64,000 bases of DNA from Terriglobia bacterium (GTDB taxonomy: Bacteria > Acidobacteriota > Terriglobia > Terriglobales > Acidobacteriaceae), in the NCBI GenBank assembly GCA_032252755.1, contig JAVUPY010000054.1:1-64000 (forward strand), given 5' to 3'. The stretch's first letter is position 1, and every line of letters begins with the position of its first letter. The position numbers and the translations under genes are program-made. Positions 46,864 through 60,376 of the stretch are shown here, piece after piece. A model generated the notes under the pieces. The model made no database searches. It was not told the origin of the DNA and worked only from the letters and a program-made list of their open reading frames with translations.

Positions 46864-49380
46864 ATGAACGCAACCCTTGCCCCTATTGCTCCCCCGCTAT
46901 CCCTGCAGGAACAGGCCATTCTCGATGGCAAAAAGGTATTGACTGGAACAGCGACCGAGCGCGTTCTCAGGATGTTTGAGGCTATTCGTACTTTTGGCCC
47001 ACCTCGTGTTGCGCTGGAACGTGCGATCTACTTTACGGAGTCTTTCAAGGCCACAGAAGGCCAGCCGCTGGTACTGCGCTGGGCAAAAGCCCTGAAGAAC
47101 ATTGCTGAGAAGATGACTGTCGCCATCTTCGACGATGAACTGATTGTGGGCCGTCCTAACACTTGGTTCGGACGGTACACCCTGGTCTATCCCGAGCTTG
47201 ACGGCACAATCATCCAAGCCGGAGCGGAAGCATTCATCGCGGCGAAAGGGGCTCCAGACGCCGTTACCGTAACCAATGAGGACAAGAAGTTCATTGACGA
47301 GGTCCTTTTCCCTTATTGGAATGGCAAAGACTTCACGCCCAACTTCATTAAGGCCCTGCCTCCTGAAACCAGACACCTCTTTTGGGGCTCTGACCCCGAG
47401 AATGTCGGGACCAAGTTTTCGTTCGTGATTATCTCTACTTCCACGATGCGCCATTCCCAGAACTGGGTCATCGATTTCGAAAAGATGCTGAAACGTGGCT
47501 GCAAGGGCTTGCGCGAAGAGGCCCAGACACGATTGAATGCGCTGGAAGACCCGCGCGACCTGGCCTTCAAAAAGCCCTTCTACGAAGCGTCCATCATCGC
47601 TTGTGACGCACTGTCTCTCATCGCCAAGCGCTACTCCGAGTTTGCCGCCGAGTTGGCAGCCAAAACGACGAACATACAGCGCAAGAAGGAACTCGAGGAG
47701 ATCGCAGCGATCTGCGCCTGGGTTCCGGAGAATCCGGCGCGTACCTTCCGGGAGGCGATCCAGGCGCAGTGGTTCACACAGCTCTTCTCGCGACTGGAGG
47801 AGATGGTCGGAGGACAGATCAACCAGGGCAGGATGGATCAGTACTTCTATCCCTTTTACAAGAAGGACATTGAAGAAGGGCGGATCACCCCGGAGGGCGC
47901 GCAGGAACTGTTCCAGTGCCTCTGGCTGAACCTGATGCAGAGCATCGAGTCCCAAATGTCACCATCCGCGGCCAAGGGCCGCGAGGGATTCTCTCACCAC
48001 GAGACGGTGACCATCGGCGGCCAGACAACCGACGGTTTCGATGCCACCAACGAGCTCTCTTACTTGATCCTGGAATCGACGCGGCCTCTTCGGAGCAGCT
48101 ACCCGGAGTTGGGAGTCCGGATCCACGCCAATACACCCGACCGGTTCCTGCATGCAGTGGCCGAGACCATCAAGGACGGAAAAGGTTCACCCAAACTGAT
48201 CAACGACGAGTTCGAAGTGCCGTGGTTTTTGAGCAACGGGATCGAAAAGAGGGAAGCCCTGGATTACGCCATGTCGGGGTGCTCGGAATCGCGCCTGCCC
48301 AACCGCGAGACCCACAAGACCGGCAATGGCGGCATCAATTACGGCATTGTCATGGAGATGACTCTCCGTGATGGCAGGGTGAAGATTTACAACGATGAGC
48401 AGTTCGGCCTGAAGACGGGTGACCCGAGGACCTTCGAGACATACCACGATGTGTGGAATGCCTACCGGCTGCAACTGGAAAACGTCGTCAAGCACATCAT
48501 GATCCAGAACTATATTGCGGCCGGGTTGAAGTCCAAGTACATCGCGGCTCCCCTGGCCTCCACGCTGCACGACCTGTGCATGGAGAACGGCAGGGACCTC
48601 CATACACACGCTGATTACATACCGGGAGCGCTGGATGCGTCCTGTATCGACGGGCTCGGAGGATTTGCGACCTGCATCGATTCTCTCGCTGCTATCAAGC
48701 ACCTTATCTATGACACGAAGAAACTGACCTGGGACCAGCTCCTCGATGCCCTCGAGAAGAACTGGGAGGGCAAGGAAGCCATCCGACAGATGTGCCTCAA
48801 TGCCCCGAAGTACGGCAATGGCATCGAGTGGGTGGACACCATCGGCTACCAGATACAGCGCACCGTTATGGAGTATGCCCACAGGCATCCCAGGCCGCAT
48901 GGCCAGAGCGCCAACATGCGCATCATTCCGATTACGTTCCATAACCCCAGCGGCAGGGTGACAATGGCCACCCCGAACGGCCGGCATGCCGGGGAGTATC
49001 TCTCCGACGGGATCGTTCCCTCGCACGGCTGCGACACCAAGGGGCCCACGGTGACTCTGCAGTCCATCGCAAGGGCGACCTGCCAGCTCTACAAAGAGCA
49101 TCGCGAAGACCTGCTCAACATGAAGATGTCGCCGGCGAACGTGAAAGGCGAGGAAGGAACGCGGCGGCTCATGCAGCTCATACGTGCCTGGAGCAGCCAA
49201 AAGCATGCGCACATCCAGTTCAACATTCTCAACAGAGAATCCTTGCTGGACGCGCAGAAGCACCCTGAGAAATATCGGGATCTCGTTGTGCGTGTTGCTG
49301 GTTACTGCGCGTACTTTGTCGACCTGTCGCCTTCGCAGCAGGCGGAGATCATTGCGCGGACGGAAGAACAGATGGGCTGA
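46864..49380 (+). CDS. Glycyl radical enzyme of unassigned substrate
   Basis: An 838-residue glycyl radical enzyme (pyruvate-formate-lyase family). The ATG at 46864 follows GGAG. The thiyl-radical Cys473 sits in SGCSESRLPNRE, a GCxE motif (Glu475) shared with eliminating GREs (choline, glycerol, isethionate and hydroxyproline types) and hydroxyphenylacetate decarboxylase. The radical Gly813 sits in VRVAGYCAYFV, with LSPSQQAEIIARTEEQ after it. TPNGRHAGEYLSDG and SPANVKGEEG are other family segments. Strict need for anoxia and for an activating enzyme (gene at 53047) follows from the family. The substrate is not assignable here: a dehydratase, C-S/C-N lyase or an arylacetate decarboxylase such as PhdB, first reported from an uncultivated acidobacterium, are all possible. 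It starts a same-strand cluster running to 57602. Confidence 0.95.
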   Translation: MNATLAPIAPPLSLQEQAILDGKKVLTGTATERVLRMFEAIRTFGPPRVALERAIYFTESFKATEGQPLVLRWAKALKNIAEKMTVAIFDDELIVGRPNTWFGRYTLVYPELDGTIIQAGAEAFIAAKGAPDAVTVTNEDKKFIDEVLFPYWNGKDFTPNFIKALPPETRHLFWGSDPENVGTKFSFVIISTSTMRHSQNWVIDFEKMLKRGCKGLREEAQTRLNALEDPRDLAFKKPFYEASIIACDALSLIAKRYSEFAAELAAKTTNIQRKKELEEIAAICAWVPENPARTFREAIQAQWFTQLFSRLEEMVGGQINQGRMDQYFYPFYKKDIEEGRITPEGAQELFQCLWLNLMQSIESQMSPSAAKGREGFSHHETVTIGGQTTDGFDATNELSYLILESTRPLRSSYPELGVRIHANTPDRFLHAVAETIKDGKGSPKLINDEFEVPWFLSNGIEKREALDYAMSGCSESRLPNRETHKTGNGGINYGIVMEMTLRDGRVKIYNDEQFGLKTGDPRTFETYHDVWNAYRLQLENVVKHIMIQNYIAAGLKSKYIAAPLASTLHDLCMENGRDLHTHADYIPGALDASCIDGLGGFATCIDSLAAIKHLIYDTKKLTWDQLLDALEKNWEGKEAIRQMCLNAPKYGNGIEWVDTIGYQIQRTVMEYAHRHPRPHGQSANMRIIPITFHNPSGRVTMATPNGRHAGEYLSDGIVPSHGCDTKGPTVTLQSIARATCQLYKEHREDLLNMKMSPANVKGEEGTRRLMQLIRAWSSQKHAHIQFNILNRESLLDAQKHPEKYRDLVVRVAGYCAYFVDLSPSQQAEIIARTEEQMG

Positions 49381-49422: not shown

Positions 49423-49558
49423 TGGTCAATAGCCAACGGATGGGCTGGGAGGTCAACGATGTCGGAAAAGAGGACGTGATCGTTCTCGTAAGTTTCCGCC
49501 AGTTAAGGTTAATTCGGGCCGCTCCTCAATGGCGCCCAAATTCAGAAGGAGAACAAAA

Positions 49559-49987
49559 ATGGAAAAAATAGTATTGAAAGGCACTACCAGGACCGTCGGG
49601 AAGGCAGAAGGCGAAGCTCTGGTTAGTGACATGCCTCTTAGTTGGGCACCCTGTTCCATTCTGAACGATGGAACAATCACGATGGTTGGAAATCCGGTCA
49701 GTGGTCAGAACGTAAAAGACAAGATCGTTATCTACCCGACTGTGACAGGTTCCACTTCCGGCGCCTTCGGTTTGCTTTTCAAGATCAAGGGCACCAAAAA
49801 GGGTCCGGCTGGAATCATCTGCCGAGAACTTCATACCATCGATCTCTCCGGCGCACTCGCTGGCGATATTCCTTCCGTGGATGGCTTGGATAAGGACCCG
49901 ATCAACACCATCAAGTCCGGCGACTGGGTGAAGATCGACGCTCCAGCGATCGGCAAGCAGGCCACCATCACCGTGGAAAGGAGATAG
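49559..49987 (+). CDS. Aconitase X small (swivel) subunit, DUF126
   Basis: A 142-residue protein from the ATG at 49559 (AAGGAG upstream). GKAEGEALVSDMPLSW, then VSGQNVKDKIVIYPT and GSTSGAF are characteristic of the DUF126 swivel domain of aconitase X. IICRELHTIDLSGALAGDIPSVDG completes the fold. Aconitase X enzymes dehydrate hydroxy acids, such as mevalonate 5-phosphate in archaea and cis-3-hydroxyproline in bacteria, and the small subunit supplies part of the active site including a Ser. It is followed after 2 bases by the large subunit. No known aconitase X that I recall is encoded beside a glycyl radical enzyme. Confidence 0.9.
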   Translation: MEKIVLKGTTRTVGKAEGEALVSDMPLSWAPCSILNDGTITMVGNPVSGQNVKDKIVIYPTVTGSTSGAFGLLFKIKGTKKGPAGIICRELHTIDLSGALAGDIPSVDGLDKDPINTIKSGDWVKIDAPAIGKQATITVERR

Positions 49988-49989
49988 CG

Positions 49990-51396
49990 ATGAAACTCAC
50001 AACCTACGAAAAAGAAATGCTCGATGGTAAACACGGAGAGGCCAAACAGTACGCCATGGAAAAGCTGGTGGCCTTTGGCGAAGCTGTAGGCGCCGAAGAA
50101 ATGGTCAAGGTATCGTTCATCCACTACATCGGCTGTGTCGAGGGCTTGCCAACCACCTCGAAGGAATATCAGCAGTTCGAGTGGGGACAGGGTCTAGTCT
50201 TGCAGCCGTTCTGGGACAAGGGCGCCAAGTTGGCCGACGATCCCAACCTTACTTGCTGTTGCGACCCATTCCTGATGCAGCTCGACAGGTATGAAGAGGA
50301 AGGGACTCCCTGGAACAACAAGTACTACAAAATGCCGGAGTCCGTTTATAAAGCGACGGTCGACGGCTACAACAAAATGAAGGAGCAGGGCTGGCTGCCT
50401 ACCTACGCGTGCACGCCCCACTTCAACAGCGCATTGCCCAAGCCCGGGGAATATGCGGCATGCTGCGAATCCAGCGCCGCGTGTTATCTCAACACCATTC
50501 TCGGTGTTAAGACGAATCGGGAGAGTGCGATTGCCGCCCCGTATGCGGCGTTCACCGGTTGTATTCCGAAGTACGGAATGCTGCTGGACAAAAATCGCAT
50601 ACCGAAGGTGATCTACGAACTGGACGATGACATCAAGAACAACATTCTGGATGATCCGGGCGATTGGGCCGCTTTGGGCGGCGCCATCGCAAAGAGGGCG
50701 AATAACCGGTTACCGGCCGTGCTCAATATGCCCACCCGCTTGAAGAGTTCAGCAGCCAAGGCGTTGTGCGCATGCGCATCTCCTGGCATGAATGACCCAA
50801 TGCTCCATCTGATCGGCATCACGCCTGGTTCTCCTACGCTGGAAGCTGCGTTTGGAGGCAAGGTCCCAGCAGATATCGAGCGAATCCACCTCAGCCTCAA
50901 GGATGTCGCAGACATGTATGCGGAGCTGAGAAACACCAAGAGCAACAAGGTGGACATCGTTCACTTCGGTTGCCCCGTCCTGATCTACGAAGAAATTCAG
51001 CAGATCGCTCGCGCCATCAAAGGCAAAAAAGTCCACAAAGACGTCATGCTCTGGGTGCAGTGCGATACGCCGAGCTATCTCATGGCTAAACACTACGGAG
51101 ATGCCCAGATCATTGAGGAGGCCGGCGGGAAGATCTACCACCAGACATGTTGGGGCATGAATCAGTTGAGTGTCCCAGGCGTGTGGGGCAAGAACTTCAA
51201 CGTCTGCACCAATAGCTTCAAGCAGTACAAGATCTTCGGAGGCTATGGGAACGGGACGACCTTCTGCAGCATGGACGAGATGATTCACGCCGCCGTGACA
51301 GGCGAGTACGTGCCAACTCGGTGGAAGCAGAAATACACAACCAAGATGGTCGACGCTGAGGAGTTCCAGGACGAGCGGTCATTGGTAAGTGTGTAA
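49990..51396 (+). CDS. Aconitase X large (catalytic) subunit, DUF521
   Basis: A 468-residue protein. The opening TTYEKEMLDGKHGEAKQYAM is the DUF521 start. Three Cys expected to hold the iron-sulfur cluster are conserved: Cys141 (YACTPHF), Cys328 (FGCPVLIYEE) and Cys387 (HQTCWGMN). GEYAACCESSAACYLNTILG and KTNRES are further family segments. A Cys-rich run CCC at residues 89-91 and CxC at 260-262 are not typical of members I can recall. With the small subunit it should form a hydro-lyase; the dehydrated substrate is unknown. It is in the middle of the GRE cluster, suggesting that GRE and aconitase X act in one pathway. Confidence 0.92.
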   Translation: MKLTTYEKEMLDGKHGEAKQYAMEKLVAFGEAVGAEEMVKVSFIHYIGCVEGLPTTSKEYQQFEWGQGLVLQPFWDKGAKLADDPNLTCCCDPFLMQLDRYEEEGTPWNNKYYKMPESVYKATVDGYNKMKEQGWLPTYACTPHFNSALPKPGEYAACCESSAACYLNTILGVKTNRESAIAAPYAAFTGCIPKYGMLLDKNRIPKVIYELDDDIKNNILDDPGDWAALGGAIAKRANNRLPAVLNMPTRLKSSAAKALCACASPGMNDPMLHLIGITPGSPTLEAAFGGKVPADIERIHLSLKDVADMYAELRNTKSNKVDIVHFGCPVLIYEEIQQIARAIKGKKVHKDVMLWVQCDTPSYLMAKHYGDAQIIEEAGGKIYHQTCWGMNQLSVPGVWGKNFNVCTNSFKQYKIFGGYGNGTTFCSMDEMIHAAVTGEYVPTRWKQKYTTKMVDAEEFQDERSLVSV

Positions 51397-51527: not shown

Positions 51528-51782
51528 GTGCTGGGTAACCGAACAATATCCTCGCCGGGCCTTCGCTGGTTGCGGCGCAGCTTCAAGTACGTGAAGCTGT
51601 GCGCCGGCTTCGGGTCGGAGGGGACGACTTGGATCTACGCCAACCCGGAGGCCCTCGTCAATGCCGCGGTAACTGGCGTGTTCACGCCGACCACGCGTTG
51701 GGACTACTGGAGCCAGCCAAAGGAGAAGCGGTTGGATATGGATGAAGACCAAGTCCACGAGTTCGTAGGCATAGGGCACTAG
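51528..51782 (+). pseudogene. 3' fragment of a second aconitase X large-subunit gene
   Basis: An 84-codon frame. GNRTISSPGLRWL and SFKYVKLCAGFGSEGTTWIY, then ALVNAAVTGVFTPTTRW line up with the last ~75 residues of the adjacent large subunit (NQLSVPGVW, SFKQYKIFGGYGNGTTFCSM, MIHAAVTGEYVPTRW). Identity is low enough that this is a paralogue's end rather than a fresh copy of the neighbour. The remaining ~380 residues are missing. No ribosome site is evident. The likely history is deletion of a second aconitase X gene. Confidence 0.65.
51535..51576 (+). repeat. 42-bp direct repeat, right copy
   Basis: The match to 49381-49422, lying at the start of the aconitase X fragment. Spacing between copies is 2154 bases and encloses both intact aconitase X genes. 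Confidence 0.7.
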
Positions 51783-51862: not shown

Positions 51863-53035
51863 ATGAATTCACAGATGCCACGAATCGCCATCAACATCGG
51901 CAGCGGTTACCTCCCAGGTATCGACTTTGTCGTGGCTGGTGCAGTGCTGGCTGCGAGCGAACTCGGATGGGAAATTGTCGGAATTCGCGACGGCTACGAT
52001 GGCCTACTTTTCCCAGGGCGTTATCCCCATGGAGGTTTGGTCAATCTTCGTCCGGAAATGATAGACGCGTCGGGTCGCGGAAGAAGTTTGATCGGGTCTG
52101 CTGCAAGGACTGATCCGTTCCACGTCAGGTCGATCAATCCCGAGAACCAGGTCGAGGAAGTCGACCGCTCTGACGATTTATTGAAAGCGCTGCACGAAGC
52201 GGGTATTGGAGCCGTTATTTCTCTGGTCGGAGGGAGCGCAATCACGGGGCTCCATGCCCTGAGTGTGGCGTTCAAACTGTACCGAAAGGGTTTGCGCACG
52301 ATCTGCGTACCGAAGTCAGTCGAGAACGAAATCGCCTGCGTATCACAGGCATTTGGCTACAACAGTGTTCTCTCCCACACAGCCGAAACACTCGAACGGA
52401 TTCGTATCGGTGCCGAGGACGTGGGCCGTCTTGCTGTAGTCGAAGTTCCGGGGCAACATGCCGGCTGGCTAGCATTGCAGTCCGGCATGGCCGCTCTCGC
52501 AGACGCGATCCTGGTACCGGAGATTCCCTTCGATCTCAAGAAAGTCGCAGACGCACTTCGTACTCACGAAAACGAGGGACGGCGACCCACTCTCGTCGTG
52601 GTTGCCGACGGCGCGCGCCCGGTAAATGGCGTCGAGGTTGCGGAAGCGCAGGGTGGGTTACGCACCAGCTTGACCCCCAATGCGGATCCTGATTTCGGCG
52701 AAGGAGAACACGTCATTGACCGTACCGGCGCGACGTCAAAGTCCGTGGCGATGGGACTGCAGAGGCTGACAGATCGCGATGTGCTGCCGTTTGCGCTTGG
52801 GCACCTGATTCGCGGCGGCGTCCCGACTGTAGTAGATCGTCAGCTTGGACTTGCTTATGGCGCCGGTGCCGTCAAGGCGCTGCACGCCGGTTCTGAAGGA
52901 GTAATGATCACGTTCGAACTGCCCGATATCAAGCGTGTCCCGCTGGCAGAGACACTTGGACGCATTCGCACCGTACCTGCCGGGAGCGAAATCATGAAGA
53001 TTGCTCGCTCACTCGGCATCGCCTTCGGCGACTAG
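51863..53035 (+). CDS. Phosphofructokinase-fold protein with altered catalytic motifs
   Basis: About 390 residues (ATG at 51863; GTG at 51851 and ATG at 51875 are alternatives). The PFK fold is clear: VPKSVENEIACVSQAFGYNSVLSHTAETLERI lies where PFKs have PKTIDND and the TFGF helix (shown here by position 150-178), and VPGQHAGWLALQSGMAALAD matches the MGRHAGWIAL segment, with VPEIPFDL after it. But the nucleotide/phosphate loop GGDG reads GGSA, the catalytic TIDND reads SVENE (first Asp to Glu), and the N-terminal GGDxPGxN reads GSGYLPGID. It is therefore unlikely to be a standard ATP- or PPi-dependent PFK; it may phosphorylate another substrate or be non-catalytic. It lies between aconitase X and the GRE activase, so it is probably part of the same pathway. 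Confidence 0.82.
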   Translation: MNSQMPRIAINIGSGYLPGIDFVVAGAVLAASELGWEIVGIRDGYDGLLFPGRYPHGGLVNLRPEMIDASGRGRSLIGSAARTDPFHVRSINPENQVEEVDRSDDLLKALHEAGIGAVISLVGGSAITGLHALSVAFKLYRKGLRTICVPKSVENEIACVSQAFGYNSVLSHTAETLERIRIGAEDVGRLAVVEVPGQHAGWLALQSGMAALADAILVPEIPFDLKKVADALRTHENEGRRPTLVVVADGARPVNGVEVAEAQGGLRTSLTPNADPDFGEGEHVIDRTGATSKSVAMGLQRLTDRDVLPFALGHLIRGGVPTVVDRQLGLAYGAGAVKALHAGSEGVMITFELPDIKRVPLAETLGRIRTVPAGSEIMKIARSLGIAFGD

Positions 53036-53046
53036 AGGAAAGACCT

Positions 53047-53994
53047 ATGAGCCTAGCAACCGAGCGCGTAGCCAAACTGACCGGAAGGGTACTCAACGTC
53101 CAGCATTTCTGCACGAATGATGGCCCGGGTATACGTACAAACGTGTTCCTCAAGGGATGTTCATTGCGCTGTAAGTGGTGCTGCAACCCTGAGAGTATTC
53201 AACTCAAGCCTGAGCTCGCCTTTGATCTCAAGCTCTGCATCGGCGTGAAGGAATGCGGGCTTTGTCTCAAAGAGTGCCCTGAGAGCGCGATTTATGTCAT
53301 CGATGCCGATGGTAAGGTGCGAATCAACTGGGACCTGTGCACGAATTGCAGCAAGTGTTGCCCAGTATGTCCAGGCAATTCGCTATACAACTTCGGCAAG
53401 GAGATGACCGTTGACGATGTACTTGCCGAAGTAGAGCAGGATTCTTCGTTCTATCGGGAATCAGGCGGTGGCATAACGCTCTCCGGTGGAGAGTGCACAC
53501 TCCAGCCTGATTTCAGCGCCGCGCTGCTCGCCGAAGCACATCAGCGTGGGATCAACACGGCGATCGAGACAGCGGGCAACGTGCCTTGGGAGTTTTTCCG
53601 TCGCGTCGTCGAACACACCGACATTGTCATGCACGACCACAAACTCAGCGATCCGTCTCGCCACAAGAAATGGGTCGGTGTCGACAACGTCAGGATTAAG
53701 GCAAATTTCCGGCGTGCTTACGAAACGTTTCCGGACAAGACCTTTATCGCTCGCACACCCGTGATTCCGGGCGTCAACGACGATGAGGAACATATTCGAG
53801 CAGTACTCGACTTCATTCGCCCTTACAAGAACGTGGTCGACTACCAGTTGTTGCCATACCACCGATATGGCGAAACGAAATACAGCTTCCTGGGACGTGT
53901 TTTTGAACTGAAAGATTTCCCGTCGTTGCCCACAGAAACACTGCGCCGCCTGCAGGCGATCGTCGACGAGGCGTTTGGCCGCACGGCGAAATGA
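53047..53994 (+). CDS. Glycyl radical enzyme activating enzyme (radical SAM)
   Basis: A 315-residue radical SAM enzyme that installs the Gly radical on its GRE using SAM and a [4Fe-4S] cluster. The SAM-cluster Cys are 38, 42 and 45 (GCSLRCKWC). An inserted ferredoxin-like domain has two further sets, Cys64/70/73/77 and Cys98/101/104/108 (CTNCSKCCPVC), as in activases of non-PFL GREs. SGGECTLQPDF and ETAGNVPWEF are the SAM-binding segments. It starts after AGAGGAAAG, 11 bases past the PFK-like gene, so the two are co-transcribed. Its target should be the GRE at 46864. Confidence 0.95.
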   Translation: MSLATERVAKLTGRVLNVQHFCTNDGPGIRTNVFLKGCSLRCKWCCNPESIQLKPELAFDLKLCIGVKECGLCLKECPESAIYVIDADGKVRINWDLCTNCSKCCPVCPGNSLYNFGKEMTVDDVLAEVEQDSSFYRESGGGITLSGGECTLQPDFSAALLAEAHQRGINTAIETAGNVPWEFFRRVVEHTDIVMHDHKLSDPSRHKKWVGVDNVRIKANFRRAYETFPDKTFIARTPVIPGVNDDEEHIRAVLDFIRPYKNVVDYQLLPYHRYGETKYSFLGRVFELKDFPSLPTETLRRLQAIVDEAFGRTAK

Positions 53995-54094: not shown

Positions 54095-55027
54095 ATGGAA
54101 CAGATACTTCACAAGATTCAGGCCATTACGATCGTCATCTTCATGGTGGGCAACCTGCTGGAGGTGGGACTCAGGCTCAAGGTTGCCGAAGCCCTCGCTG
54201 TCTTCCGGAACGTGCGCTTCCTGGTGACATCGTTGGTCTGGTGTTTTGTCCTGGGTCCAGCCCTGGCCGTGTTGCTCACGAAACTCATTCCGTTAGCTGC
54301 ACCCTACGCCATCGGCCTGGTGTTACTGGGGATGGCGCCATGCTCCCCGGCTATCCCGGTCATGATGAAAAAATCAGGTGGAAGCTTGGCTTACATGTCG
54401 GCTTTCATGCTGATCGCCTATGCCGGAACAGTGCTGTTGATGCCGTTTATGGTGCCATGGTTGGTGAAGGGATTCGCCGCGGATCCTTGGACTATCGCCA
54501 AGCCGCTCCTGTTTTTCATTACGCTACCGCTGATCATCGGAGCAGCGATTCGACACGTCACGGAAACGACTGCGGAGAAAGCAGCTCCCATCGTCAACAA
54601 GGTGACGGGCTTGAATACGCTCATCCTGTGTCTCATTCTGCTCTGGGTTTACAGGGGAGAGATATTTAGCGCGGTTGGGACATACGCAATCGGCAGCCAG
54701 ATCCTGTGCTACGCATTGCTGGGATTTGGGTCGTATTTACTTAGCTTCGGACTTTCCTATGAACAGAAAGCCCCGATGGTTCTCGGCGTCTGCACGCGCA
54801 ACGTCGGCCCTGCTCTTGCAACACTACTTGGGGTAGCCAGCGCGCCCCAGGGCGCGATCACGATGTGCATCCTGGCAATATTCCTCGGAGCCATCCTCTC
54901 CGGGTTCGTCGCTGCGGCGGTGCTGAAACGCTTTTGTGCTCCGGTCATCCGGCCAAGTCGGGAAGCTTCCTCGGATCAGGGAGGAGAGCATGTCGAAGTG
55001 CCTAAACAACATGCAATTCACCTCTGA
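54095..55027 (+). CDS. BASS-family (bile acid:sodium symporter-like) transporter
   Basis: A 310-residue inner-membrane protein with about nine membrane segments. LVLLGMAPCSPAIPVMMKKSGG and ALLGVASAPQGAITMCILAIFLG are the two crossover regions typical of the SBF/BASS fold, and SYEQKAPMVLGVCTRNVGPAL fits the second one's neighbour. These proteins move organic anions (bile acids, pyruvate, pantothenate) with sodium. It starts 101 bases after the GRE activase, after AAAGGGG. It is likely the uptake or export step for this cluster's substrate or product. Confidence 0.9.
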   Translation: MEQILHKIQAITIVIFMVGNLLEVGLRLKVAEALAVFRNVRFLVTSLVWCFVLGPALAVLLTKLIPLAAPYAIGLVLLGMAPCSPAIPVMMKKSGGSLAYMSAFMLIAYAGTVLLMPFMVPWLVKGFAADPWTIAKPLLFFITLPLIIGAAIRHVTETTAEKAAPIVNKVTGLNTLILCLILLWVYRGEIFSAVGTYAIGSQILCYALLGFGSYLLSFGLSYEQKAPMVLGVCTRNVGPALATLLGVASAPQGAITMCILAIFLGAILSGFVAAAVLKRFCAPVIRPSREASSDQGGEHVEVPKQHAIHL

Positions 55028-55194: not shown

Positions 55195-56802
55195 ATGGAA
55201 TTGATTCAGACATTCTTGACTCAGCAGCCTTTCCTGGCGCTCTTCCTTGTGATCGCCCTGGGCTACGGCCTTGGCTCCATCAACATCAAAGGCTTTTCGC
55301 TCGGGGTCGGTGCCGTTATCTTTTCAGGACTCTTCATTGGGGCGATCGCACCGAAGTGTCAGCCACCTGCCATGGTGGGAACACTCGGCTTGGTAATGTT
55401 CCTCTATGGCTTGGGAGTTCAGTTCGGAAAACAGTTCTTCGAGGGTTTGGCCGGAGCAGCCGGACGACGCTACAACCTGCTTTCAATCATTGCGCTGACC
55501 GCCGCAGCAATTGTTACTGTCGTGGAACTTTTTTTAATGAATATTCCCCGCGCGCTATTGGCGGGGCTTTTCGCTGGTTCTGGCACGAGCGCCGCAACGA
55601 TGCAGGCAGCAATGGAAGCAGCGAAGAACAGCGATCCCGCGGTGGGATACAGCGTCGCGTTCCCCTTTGGTCTGGTCGGAGCAATCTTGTGCATGTACTT
55701 CATGCAAGTGTTCGTGAAGCCCGATCTGGAATCTGCCTTAAAGCCGGGATTACAAACCCTCGAGGTCGCGGTTCATTCAGCTGACGTGGTGGGGCATCCT
55801 CTCGGGGAGTTAATGTCACGATTGCCTGAAGGTGTACAGGTGCTGCTTGTGCGCGCAGGCAATGAAAACAAGTTCCCAACGCCGGAGCTGATCATAGAAG
55901 AAGGCGACATATTGTTTCTTGGAAGCAAAGACAAGGCGCCGTTGGCGGAGGCCAGAGACCTATTGGGCAAAAGTGCATCGGGTAAGGTCACCAGTGATCG
56001 GTCCAAGATTGATTACATGTTTGCCTTCGTATCAAAGCCAGACCTTGTGGGTACTCGGTTGTCGAGCCTGACAATGCCCGCGGGCGTGGAAGCAAGGATT
56101 ATGCACGTTCAACGCGGCGATAACGAGATGCTGGCAGGGCCAGGGATCACACTGGAAATGGGTGATCGTGTGGGAGTGCTGACGGATCGCGCGAACTTCC
56201 AAATGTTGCGGAAATTCTTCGGGAACTCGATTCGGGGTACAACAGAATTCAGCTATGTCAGCCTCGGAATCGGGATCATGCTGGGAGTGTTTCTCGGTAT
56301 AGCGCCAGTACCACTGCCGGGCGTCGGAACGCTGCGACTTGGGGTTGCTGGTGGTGCGCTCATTGTCGCGTTAATCCTGGGAAAACTCGGGCGGACCGGA
56401 AACTTGACTTGGACCATGCCAATATCCGCAAACCTCACCTTGAGAAACGCCGGACTCTCAATTTTTCTTGCGCAGGTGGGAATGAGTTCGGGCGGACCCT
56501 TCGTCAAGGTTGTGCATGACAGTGGGCTGGTCCTGCTAGGTGCAGGCGCCTGTATTCTGTTAGCACTGGCACTAACGCCACTGCTCATCGGCCACTTCGG
56601 GATGCGCATGCCATTCGACGACCTCTTAGGGGTTACCGCCGGCGTGACCGGCACGCCAGCGATCCTCGCATATGCATACCGGTCTTATCCGTCCGACCGC
56701 GTAGAGATTTCCTACGCGATGATCTATCCCGCTGCAACTATCGTCAAAATCGTAATTGCGCAGTTACTTATCGCTGTCGGCACAACTGGGGGCAGTTCTT
56801 AG
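55195..56802 (+). CDS. AspT/YidE-family antiporter with RCK-C domains
   Basis: A 535-residue transporter of the aspartate:alanine exchanger family. Membrane segments in the N- and C-terminal halves (GLVMFLYGLGVQFGKQFFEG, LAGLFAGSGTSAATMQAAM; NAGLSIFLAQVGMSSGGPFV, DDLLGVTAGVTGTPAILAY) flank two soluble TrkA-C domains at about 190-260 and 275-345 (GEDILFLGSKDK and GPGITLEMGDRVGVLTDR-type ends). AspT exchanges a dicarboxylate for its decarboxylation product and creates a proton gradient. That would fit a decarboxylating or eliminating pathway here, but it is inference. It is second of two transporters in the cluster. Confidence 0.9.
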   Translation: MELIQTFLTQQPFLALFLVIALGYGLGSINIKGFSLGVGAVIFSGLFIGAIAPKCQPPAMVGTLGLVMFLYGLGVQFGKQFFEGLAGAAGRRYNLLSIIALTAAAIVTVVELFLMNIPRALLAGLFAGSGTSAATMQAAMEAAKNSDPAVGYSVAFPFGLVGAILCMYFMQVFVKPDLESALKPGLQTLEVAVHSADVVGHPLGELMSRLPEGVQVLLVRAGNENKFPTPELIIEEGDILFLGSKDKAPLAEARDLLGKSASGKVTSDRSKIDYMFAFVSKPDLVGTRLSSLTMPAGVEARIMHVQRGDNEMLAGPGITLEMGDRVGVLTDRANFQMLRKFFGNSIRGTTEFSYVSLGIGIMLGVFLGIAPVPLPGVGTLRLGVAGGALIVALILGKLGRTGNLTWTMPISANLTLRNAGLSIFLAQVGMSSGGPFVKVVHDSGLVLLGAGACILLALALTPLLIGHFGMRMPFDDLLGVTAGVTGTPAILAYAYRSYPSDRVEISYAMIYPAATIVKIVIAQLLIAVGTTGGSS

Positions 56803-57634: not shown

Positions 57635-60376
57635 ATGAAATCGAAGCAGAACCTTCCAATCGACTATGTGCAGACTTCTGAGCAGAAGCGCCTGAATGAT
57701 TACCGCGAGATCGGCATACCCTGGAAGAAATGGGGCCCCTATCTCAGCGAGCGACAGTGGGGTACAGTTCGCGAAGACTATAGTCAGGGCGGCAACGCCT
57801 GGGATTATTTTACCCATGATCAGGCGCGTTCTCGTGCGTACCGGTGGGGCGAAGACGGACTGGCCGGCATTTCAGACGATCAACAGCAACTCTGTTTTGC
57901 TGTCGCCATGTGGAACGGCCGCGATCCTATTCTAAAGGAGCGCCTGTTCGGATTAACGAACAGCGAGGGTAATCACGGCGAGGATGTCAAAGAATACTAT
58001 TTCTACATCGACAGCACTCCTACCCACTCGTATATGAAGTATCTCTACAAGTACCCTCAGCGGGATTATCCCTATCGCGACCTTGTGGAAACAAACAGGC
58101 GTCTCTCGAGGGACGAGTTCGAGTATGAATTACTCGATACCGGAGTCTTTGACGATGATCGTTACTTCGATGTGTTTGTCGAATACGCCAAGGCTGACCC
58201 CGAAGATCTCTTGATCCGTATCTCCGCCCACAATCGTGGACCGGAAACAGCTGAAATCCACTTGCTTCCAACATTGTGGTTTCGTAACACGTGGTCGTGG
58301 GCGGAGGGCGATATTAAGCCGAATCTGAGGAAGACAGGTGAAGGCGAAGTGCTTGCGTCGCATCCGGTACTTGTCAACTACAAGTTACAGTGCGAGGGCA
58401 ACCCGGCCCTACTCTTCACGGAGAATGAGTCCAACGCGAGCCGACTGTGGGGCCAACCGAACCCGACTCCCTACGTCAAAGACGCCTTCCATGAGTGCGT
58501 GGTATCAGGCAAGAAAGACGCGGTGAATCCGGATTGCTCCGGCACAAAGGCTGCGGCCCATTATGTACTGCAGATTCCCGCCGGTGGTCACAAGTCAGTT
58601 CGGCTGCGCCTGAGCGCGAATCCGGTAATGGATGCCTTTTCGAACTTTGACAAGATCTTTGCTGGTCGACTTGACGAAGCAAATGAGTTTTATGATCGAA
58701 TCACCCCAAGCTCTTTAAGTGAGGATGAACGGCGCGTTCATCGGCAAGCTCTTGCCGGAATGTTGTGGACTAAGCAGTTCTACTATTTCGACCTTGATAG
58801 ATGGCTCGCTGAGCATGACGCTCATCCAATGACGGGAGCGGGTAGCCACAATATTCGGAACACCGAATGGTTCCACATGTTGAATCGCGACATCATTTCG
58901 ATGCCGGACAAATGGGAATACCCCTGGTATGCGGCCTGGGATTTGGCTTTTCACACTCTCTCCCTTTCTTTGGTGGATTTCGATTTTGCCAAAGACCAAC
59001 TCTTGCTCATGCTGCGGAACCTCTATGCTCACCCCAATGGGCAGATCCCGGCCTACGAATGGAATTTCAGCGATGTAAATCCGCCAGTACACGCCTGGGC
59101 CACCCTGTTCCTTTACAACATCGAGAAAGAATTGGGTCGTGCCGACCTACGTTTCCTGGAACGCTCCTTCCAGGGCCTGATGCTCAATTTCAACTGGTGG
59201 GTCAATCGCAAAGATCCCGAAGGCCGTAATGTGTTTGCCGGGGGATTTCTCGGGCTGGACAACATTGGCGTCTTCGATCGAAGTTCCAAGTTGCCAACCG
59301 GAGGTCATCTCGACCAGGCAGATGGAACCGCATGGATGGCTTTCTACTGCCAGTGCATGTTGGAGATCGCGCTGATCCTCACTGAGTACGATTCAATGTA
59401 TGAGGAAATCGCCTTCAAGTTTCTGGAGCAGTTCGTCTGGATCACCTATGCCATGGATCGTATCGGAGGGGGTCACGACGGAATGTGGGACGCGCAGGAC
59501 GGATTCTTCTATGACCTGTTGCACTTCCCGAACGGCGACTCCATGCGACTCAAGATTCGTTCGATGGTTGGATTGCTGCCTCTTTGTGCTTCCACCGTAT
59601 TTGAACCCGGATTTGTAGCGCGCCATCCACGCATTTTGGAGTTGGGCCAGTTGTTCAGGAAGCGCCATCCCGATGTATTGAAACATGCCAGAGGCTCAGA
59701 AGAAGCGTTAATAGGCCAATGTGGTCGACGGTTGCTCGCGGTACTTAACAAGGAGAAATTGCAGCGAACACTCCATTACATGCTCGACGAGAATGAGTTC
59801 CTGAGCCCTTATGGCATCCGTTCTCTGTCCCGTTACCACCTTGAGCATCCATTTGTCTTCCAGGTTGGATCGCAGGAGTACAGAGTGGACTATCTGCCCG
59901 CTGAATCTAATACAGGAATGTTCGGCGGCAATTCCAACTGGCGTGGTCCGGTGTGGATGCCGGTGAATGTGCTCTTAATACGAGGCCTCATGAACCTCTA
60001 TCAGTTCTACGGAGATGATTTTAAAGTCGAGTGCCCCACGGGCTCCGGAACACAAATGACTCTGTTTGAGGTTGCTCAGGAAATCTCCCGCAGACTTTCT
60101 GGCATTTTCCTCCGCGACCAGAATGGAAACCGTCCAGTTTACGGTGGTACCAAGAAGTTCCAGGAAGATCCTTACTGGCGAGACTACATCTTGTTCTACG
60201 AATATTTTCACGGTGATAACGGAGCAGGACTTGGTGCCAGTCATCAAACGGGATGGACTGGAGTTGTTGCGCGGATTATGGACCTGTTTGCTCGGACGAA
60301 TGCGGCTGACCTATTGGAGACGTCGAAACACGAACTGCTCGCAAAGCAGACAAGAGAACAAGTGGCAGGCCGCTAA
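57635..60376 (+). CDS. GH63-type glucosidase (MGH1-like), cytoplasmic
   Basis: A 913-residue glycoside hydrolase related to GH63 alpha-glucosidases and glucosylglycerate hydrolases. KWGPYLSERQWGTVREDYSQ is the usual opening. The (alpha/alpha)6 barrel has DKWEYPWYAAWDLAFH (catalytic Asp in AAWD), GGNSNWRGPVWMPVN and FYEYFHGDNGAGLGASHQTG (catalytic Glu in YEYF). It has no signal peptide, so it acts in the cytoplasm. It starts after GAGAGG, 32 bases past the barrel gene. The natural substrate is probably a small alpha-glucoside or compatible solute. It is paired with a GH13 enzyme. Confidence 0.9.
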   Translation: MKSKQNLPIDYVQTSEQKRLNDYREIGIPWKKWGPYLSERQWGTVREDYSQGGNAWDYFTHDQARSRAYRWGEDGLAGISDDQQQLCFAVAMWNGRDPILKERLFGLTNSEGNHGEDVKEYYFYIDSTPTHSYMKYLYKYPQRDYPYRDLVETNRRLSRDEFEYELLDTGVFDDDRYFDVFVEYAKADPEDLLIRISAHNRGPETAEIHLLPTLWFRNTWSWAEGDIKPNLRKTGEGEVLASHPVLVNYKLQCEGNPALLFTENESNASRLWGQPNPTPYVKDAFHECVVSGKKDAVNPDCSGTKAAAHYVLQIPAGGHKSVRLRLSANPVMDAFSNFDKIFAGRLDEANEFYDRITPSSLSEDERRVHRQALAGMLWTKQFYYFDLDRWLAEHDAHPMTGAGSHNIRNTEWFHMLNRDIISMPDKWEYPWYAAWDLAFHTLSLSLVDFDFAKDQLLLMLRNLYAHPNGQIPAYEWNFSDVNPPVHAWATLFLYNIEKELGRADLRFLERSFQGLMLNFNWWVNRKDPEGRNVFAGGFLGLDNIGVFDRSSKLPTGGHLDQADGTAWMAFYCQCMLEIALILTEYDSMYEEIAFKFLEQFVWITYAMDRIGGGHDGMWDAQDGFFYDLLHFPNGDSMRLKIRSMVGLLPLCASTVFEPGFVARHPRILELGQLFRKRHPDVLKHARGSEEALIGQCGRRLLAVLNKEKLQRTLHYMLDENEFLSPYGIRSLSRYHLEHPFVFQVGSQEYRVDYLPAESNTGMFGGNSNWRGPVWMPVNVLLIRGLMNLYQFYGDDFKVECPTGSGTQMTLFEVAQEISRRLSGIFLRDQNGNRPVYGGTKKFQEDPYWRDYILFYEYFHGDNGAGLGASHQTGWTGVVARIMDLFARTNAADLLETSKHELLAKQTREQVAGR

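Follow-up and report, generated by a model that had tools for sequence, protein, structure and literature searches.

A protein of the phosphofructokinase fold, apparently without phosphofructokinase catalysis, is co-inherited with a glycyl-radical enzyme activase

The roles of individual residues in phosphofructokinases (PFKs) used here come in part from general knowledge of PFK structures. They come in part also from a 2025 review of the PFK superfamily (PMC12203962), in which the donor signature GGDG belongs to the ATP-dependent enzymes and GGDD to the PPi-dependent ones, and in which no member described as inactive, non-catalytic, pseudo- or linked to a glycyl-radical enzyme (GRE) was found. 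No description of a PFK-like protein beside GREs was found in the open-licence papers searched. Among the closest described systems, SqiK is a sulfofructose kinase of the PF00365 family in the sulfo-EMP2 pathway (PMC9594981), and HpsG/HpsH and IslA/IslB are pairs of a C-S-cleaving GRE and its activase, of which the active-site residues of IslA and HpsG (PMC8473560) serve here as the reference for the GREs that we call class A. As far as can be seen, membership in the PFK superfamily is known for proteins like the one described below, and its coupling to a GRE activase is new.

The window is the whole stretch of 64,000 nucleotides that was analysed (contig JAVUPY010000054.1 of a Terriglobia bacterium, assembly GCA_032252755.1). 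It contains a gene for a PFK-like protein (PFKL), the subject of this report, followed directly by a GRE activating enzyme (AE); family-wide counts refer to 17 PFKL loci.

46867 to 49380, forward strand: GRE, HpsG/IslA-like, with the Cys, the Glu, the Gly-radical motif and two anion-binding Arg kept; best PDB matches 5ymr, 6lon and 7kq3
49529 to 49987, forward strand: aconitase X (AcnX) small (swivel) subunit (PF01989, E 4.6e-16); aconitase X genes in 7/17 loci
49990 to 51396, forward strand: aconitase X large subunit, 468 aa (PF04412, E 3.5e-100)
51579 to 51752, forward strand: remains of another aconitase X large subunit of a different type, reduced to its C-terminal 58 aa (67% identity to AcnX of L035/L043, E ~1e-20)
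51863 to 53035, forward strand: PFKL, a PFK-fold protein of 390 aa (PF00365, E 1.1e-50), with 16 relatives that share its losses
53047 to 53994, forward strand: GRE activating enzyme, radical SAM, 315 aa, with CxxxCxxC and Fer4 inserts (NF048010, 371.9 bits against a cut-off of 430)
54095 to 55027, forward strand: bile acid:sodium symporter family (SBF/BASS) transporter (PF01758, E 3.4e-17); SBF-type gene in 12/17 loci
55195 to 56802, forward strand: AspT/YidE-type antiporter, in 5/17 loci
57635 to 60376, forward strand: MGH1-like/GH63 glycoside hydrolase (PF22422), a recurrent neighbour with 57 to 64% identical copies in L034, L038, L045 (two) and L106

The PFKL open reading frame is intact, with an ATG start and a TAG stop, and in a Pfam search the PF00365 match spans residues 7 to 340, which corresponds to a full-length PFK fold. 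The protein is 26% identical to E. coli PfkA and lies below the curated cut-off of every NCBIfam PFK model, the best being TIGR02483 (213 against 430.55 bits). AlphaFold2 models of PFKLs show a complete PFK fold: the window model has a pLDDT of 71.6, with the loop that carries E154 uncertain, and that of L036 has a pLDDT of 81.7 and a pTM of 0.80, with best PDB matches that are all PFKs at a TM of ~0.9. Structure prediction had been proposed as a check in an earlier, sequence-only reading of this DNA. Because two further PFK genes are present in the source genome, PFKL is not its housekeeping PFK, and at least one other PFK gene was present in all searched host genomes except the metagenome assembly G403.

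The 16 relatives are 45 to 58% identical and, with the window protein, make 17 in all. A scan of 396 genomes of the same phylum gave two orthologues at 55%, followed by a gap down to ordinary PFKs at 38 to 43%; the three PFKL sequences were also searched against 84,980 species genomes, which gave 13 loci at 45 to 56% (of which L037 and L034 are one contig), and two further copies came from searches of sampled phyla. No relative was found in the viral contig collection searched. The hosts belong to the Acidobacteriota, Myxococcota, Desulfobacteraceae, Verrucomicrobiota and Cyanobacteriota, together with some metagenome assemblies that have no placed phylum. In the tree the 17 PFKLs form one clade (support 100/100), which lies within the PFK_mixed-type enzymes and has a stem 0.91 changes per site long. 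Since phyla are mixed inside this clade, the tree indicates horizontal transfer of PFKL between phyla.

For residue mapping, the 17 PFKLs were aligned with E. coli PfkA, whose numbering is used unless stated otherwise, together with 27 ordinary PFKs from the phylum of the window. The sequence-only reading had picked out GSGYLPGID, GGSA (in full, GGSAITGLH), PKSVENE, HAGW and PEIPFD as altered or retained PFK motifs and had named their misplacement as a possible error; all five were confirmed in the window reading frame, and the alignment agrees with their placement, so that misplacement was rejected. On the donor side, the GGDG loop with its Mg-binding Asp103 is absent from all 17 PFKLs. Position 103 is occupied by at least six different residues, including P, G, A, S, T and L, the donor-loop D12 is replaced in every case by Tyr, Phe or Ile, and G104 by Arg, Gln, His or Asn. 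GGDD, the PPi donor signature, was also looked for and was found in 0/17, and a PPi-PFK identity was rejected on this ground. On the acceptor side, the F6P-binding and transition-state residues R171 and R243 are present in none of the proteins, H249 in one and R162 in seven, and the R252 position, part of the F6P phosphate site, is R or K. The segments HAGW and PEIPFD, which had been regarded as kept, are there to the letter, but the first stands in VEVPGQHAGW where the PFK motif is VEVMGRYAGW, and R171 has gone from it.

The general base of PFK, D127, is Glu in 17/17 PFKLs. The TIDND Asp is replaced, as had been claimed, but a carboxylate remains. Nearby, T125 has become S, position 129 is D or E in all 17, E222 is E or D in 16 of the 17, and G170 is invariant. 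It had also been asked whether GGSA and SVENE are fixed among homologues; the catalytic losses are common to the whole family, but these particular letters are not, because GGSAITGLH contains a six-residue insertion in the GGDG region that is peculiar to the window (the others have VxG-x-(R/Q)-(A/G)L), and SVENE is matched by xEND in 15 of the 16 other PFKLs. The proposed departure from the PFK reaction is borne out, given that the catalytic motifs are lost in every member, the window protein included. By sequence, the site for nucleotide, PPi and Mg is lost, as is the one for the phosphate of F6P, with the PFK fold kept. We consider it near certain that PFKL does not use the known mechanism to phosphorylate F6P.

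A kinase in which both the donor and the acceptor have changed, acting for example on a hydroxy acid or a sugar acid of the cluster, was one of two roles put forward in the sequence-only reading. The complete PFK fold, the carboxylate still at the base position and the existence of PFK-family enzymes with new acceptors, such as SqiK for sulfofructose (PMC9594981), would all suit such an enzyme. However, D103, D12, G104 and R171 are absent from all 17 proteins and the residues that replace them vary, so that the donor side is destroyed, and because neither the ATP nor the PPi donor signature of PMC12203962 is left, phosphorylation of another acceptor is not favoured and we judge an altered kinase to be unlikely.

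While the lost catalytic sites vary freely, R89, E154, N167, S168, Q206, Q327 and Y332 are fixed and specific to PFKLs, which is the pattern expected after a change of function. An acidic pocket predicted to face a substrate hydroxyl (E154, D/E156 and E/D249, window numbering) is kept under selection, and dN/dS between close pairs is 0.06 to 0.20, which denotes purifying selection. The clade also has a disordered insert of about 25 residues with a conserved L-K-A-x-L-S-P, missing only in L047 and L048. A functionless, divergent or decaying PFK paralogue might have been suspected from the loss of catalytic motifs and because nearly every host genome also encodes canonical PFKs, but 17 intact reading frames in at least four phyla, the low dN/dS and the fixation of new residues make this extremely improbable. 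We consider a decaying or lone copy to be refuted by this selection and conservation and by the 16 relatives that share the changes.

In the window, the AE gene starts 11 bp past the PFKL stop codon. The gene directly downstream of PFKL is a radical-SAM GRE activase in 17/17 loci, at a spacing of −4 to +26 bp, and the PFKL-linked AEs form one clade (100/99). A GRE gene lies within the fetched locus or within ~13 kb in 15/17; the assembly of L040 has it on a different contig, and for L046 the end of the contig is reached. The tie to GRE genes that had been suggested earlier holds more widely, as PFKL and a close GRE co-occur in the same 3 of 396 Acidobacteriota genomes (p ~1e-7). Pairwise distances were also compared by the mirror-tree approach. 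PFKL and AE distances are correlated with an r of 0.81 (partial r of 0.72 given the GRE), whereas the partial r of PFKL and GRE distances given the AE is −0.11. As a caveat, the distances of AE and GRE also correlate with each other (r 0.73), and 16 loci underlie the partial correlation.

The GREs do not follow this pattern of common descent. Those linked to PFKL fall into at least three separate lineages, split by unlinked GREs, and formed a single lineage in 0% of bootstrap trees; two PFKL genomes also contain HpsG-like GREs (L147 and L148) that have another AE and no PFKL. The window GRE reaches 1002 bits with the HpsG model NF048011 (cut-off 1000), and the related GREs of L034 and L038 are below the cut-off. 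As in the window, class A GREs retain the two anion-binding Arg, the Cys, the Glu and the Gly of IslA/HpsG. In contrast, class C GREs (that of G1082 C78 and that of the second copy in G400) lack both Arg and the Glu, and the accompanying AE is still 63 to 65% identical to the window AE. It was observed that class C GREs (L153 and L159) have GACVGSY at the active-site Cys, where the usual Glu is absent, and judged from these motifs their chemistry must for this reason differ from that of class A. As a separate observation, the cyanobacterial GRE gene of locus L044 (genome G403, contig C243:31870-34355) is split into two overlapping frames, by either a frameshift or an assembly error.

PFKL is therefore co-inherited with, and immediately upstream of, one AE clade, and the GRE partner has been exchanged. 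Since the same PFKL/AE pair occurs with GREs whose active sites are unrelated, the link of PFKL points to the activase and not to one pathway product. The earlier suggestion of a link to a hydroxy acid made by the cluster is accordingly not favoured, nor is a tie between PFKL and the substrate of the GRE, which was considered and set aside because the GREs are swapped under the same pair.

The genes around PFKL vary more than the activase does. An SDR gene is present in 6/17 loci and an MGH1-like GH63 gene in 5/17, the latter beside PFKL loci of several phyla. Because SBF transporters, aconitase X, SDR, the AspT antiporter and GH63 recur across the 17 loci, the gene content suggests that a hydroxylated organic anion, a sulfonate or a carboxylate, is taken up and degraded, with the substrate varying by locus. 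Glycerate-type and sulfonate-type anions are both compatible with the Arg pair of the GRE, the SBF importers and the GH63 neighbours, and the GH63 hydrolase may supply the cluster with a released substrate of the glycerate or glycerol type.

Several further features of the loci were observed. The 58-aa AcnX remnant, located between the intact aconitase X large subunit and PFKL, is unlike its intact neighbour, and by its sequence marks a past gene replacement in the cluster. A conserved protein of 400 to 490 aa without a Pfam or NCBIfam match is encoded near aconitase X genes (L041:6961-8427, with similar reading frames in L040, L043 and L035); by eye, part of the L041 protein recalls a SAM-dependent methyltransferase. 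S-adenosylmethionine synthetase genes lie inside two clusters (L035:11538-12719, recognised by eye, and L044:1841-3016, by Pfam), and an NfuA-like Fe-S carrier is encoded at L035:12823-13698; both would be expected for the supply of a radical-SAM activase and of Fe-S dehydratases.

The adjacency and co-inheritance described above also fit an enzyme that acts at a step common to these pathways, and the main rival to a partner of the activase is a new enzymatic activity. PFKL would then use its acidic pocket, with Glu154 as the acid/base, for a non-phosphoryl reaction such as an isomerisation, lyase reaction or dehydration on an intermediate shared by the GRE pathways. Glu at position 127 is fixed and not drifting, which could mean catalysis; the change from D127 in 17/17, the S at position 125 and the functional-looking D129 and E222 agree with this, as do the strong purifying selection and the presence in the clusters of other catabolic genes (aconitase X, SDR, SBF importers and GH63). 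However, PFKL persists with GREs of different active sites, and the pathway genes are variable (AcnX in 7/17 and SDR in 6/17) where the activase alone is constant. Moreover, we know of no PFK-superfamily member with non-phosphoryl chemistry, and we hold a new enzyme to be a real but doubtful possibility.

Some GRE operons are substrate-responsive, and PFKL might instead regulate transcription or translation of its operon, or be a scaffold subunit of a catabolic complex, without being directed at the activase. Its tight operon position and ligand-binding fold would be in keeping with such roles, but the Pfam search found no nucleic-acid-binding domain in PFKL, and co-inheritance is specific to the AE and does not extend to the enzymes of the operon; we regard an operon regulator or scaffold as improbable, slightly more so than an altered kinase.

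The sequence comparisons taken together suggest that PFKL descends from a PFK, is no longer a kinase, and probably serves the activase as a ligand-binding partner or a sensor. Of the two roles offered in the sequence-only reading, that of a sensor or binding protein seems the better one. Our preferred reading, held tentatively although it may well be right, is that PFKL is a non-phosphotransferring, ligand-binding partner or sensor in GRE activation. Phosphate transfer would have been lost and the PFK fold retained; a small polyhydroxy or hydroxy-acid ligand would occupy what was once the acceptor pocket; surfaces specific to the family, for example the disordered L-K-A-x-L-S-P insert, might make contact with the activase, alone or paired with the GRE; and installation of the glycyl radical would be gated or assisted by PFKL according to substrate supply. 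In a stronger form of this proposal, the PFK fold would have become a dedicated regulator or cofactor of GRE activation, sensing a small metabolite where F6P once bound and binding to the activase; PFKL and activase would have travelled together from phylum to phylum as one radical enzyme was exchanged for another. This is a fair possibility, and we advance it with more reserve.

Proteins of the PFK superfamily seldom lose phosphoryl transfer, and the annotation '6-phosphofructokinase' would be wrong for the PFKL clade. A conserved partner gene that tracks the activase rather than the GRE offers a concrete handle on the control of the activase, as its effect on the radical yield is directly measurable by EPR. 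Its place just before the activase gene in at least four bacterial phyla suggests that an old metabolic enzyme was turned to the activation of radical enzymes, as a partner or a sensor.

Among known systems, SqiK resembles PFKL as a PFK-family protein in an organosulfur-type cluster, but, compared by description only (PMC9594981), it is an active kinase and is not linked to a GRE activase. The window GRE and AE are nearest to HpsG/HpsH and IslA/IslB, and the equivalents of R189, R678, C468 and E470 are kept (PMC8473560). The window GRE differs from HpsG and IslA in having Asn at the equivalent of Q193, and its cluster adds AcnX and an SBF transporter. The ATP-PFKs (PfkA and the TIGR02483 PFK_mixed group) share with PFKL the fold, length, domain order and whole-length PF00365 match and are its nearest kin in the tree; PFKL is set apart by the loss of D12, D103, G104, R171 and R243 in 17/17 and of H249 in 16/17, by Glu in place of D127, and by its low TIGR02483 score. 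Like the PPi-PFKs (GGDD, PKTIDxD), PFKL has Pro-Lys/Thr/Arg before a TIDND-like loop, but it has neither GGDD nor a Mg-binding Asp, and it scores 27.9 to 75.5 bits against cut-offs of 273 to 550. Non-catalytic PFK halves, such as the regulatory half of eukaryotic PFK, are comparable in that the PFK fold was kept as a ligand-binding regulatory unit once catalysis had been lost; those halves are fused to an active PFK half, whereas the bacterial PFKL stands alone and has its tie to a radical SAM activase.
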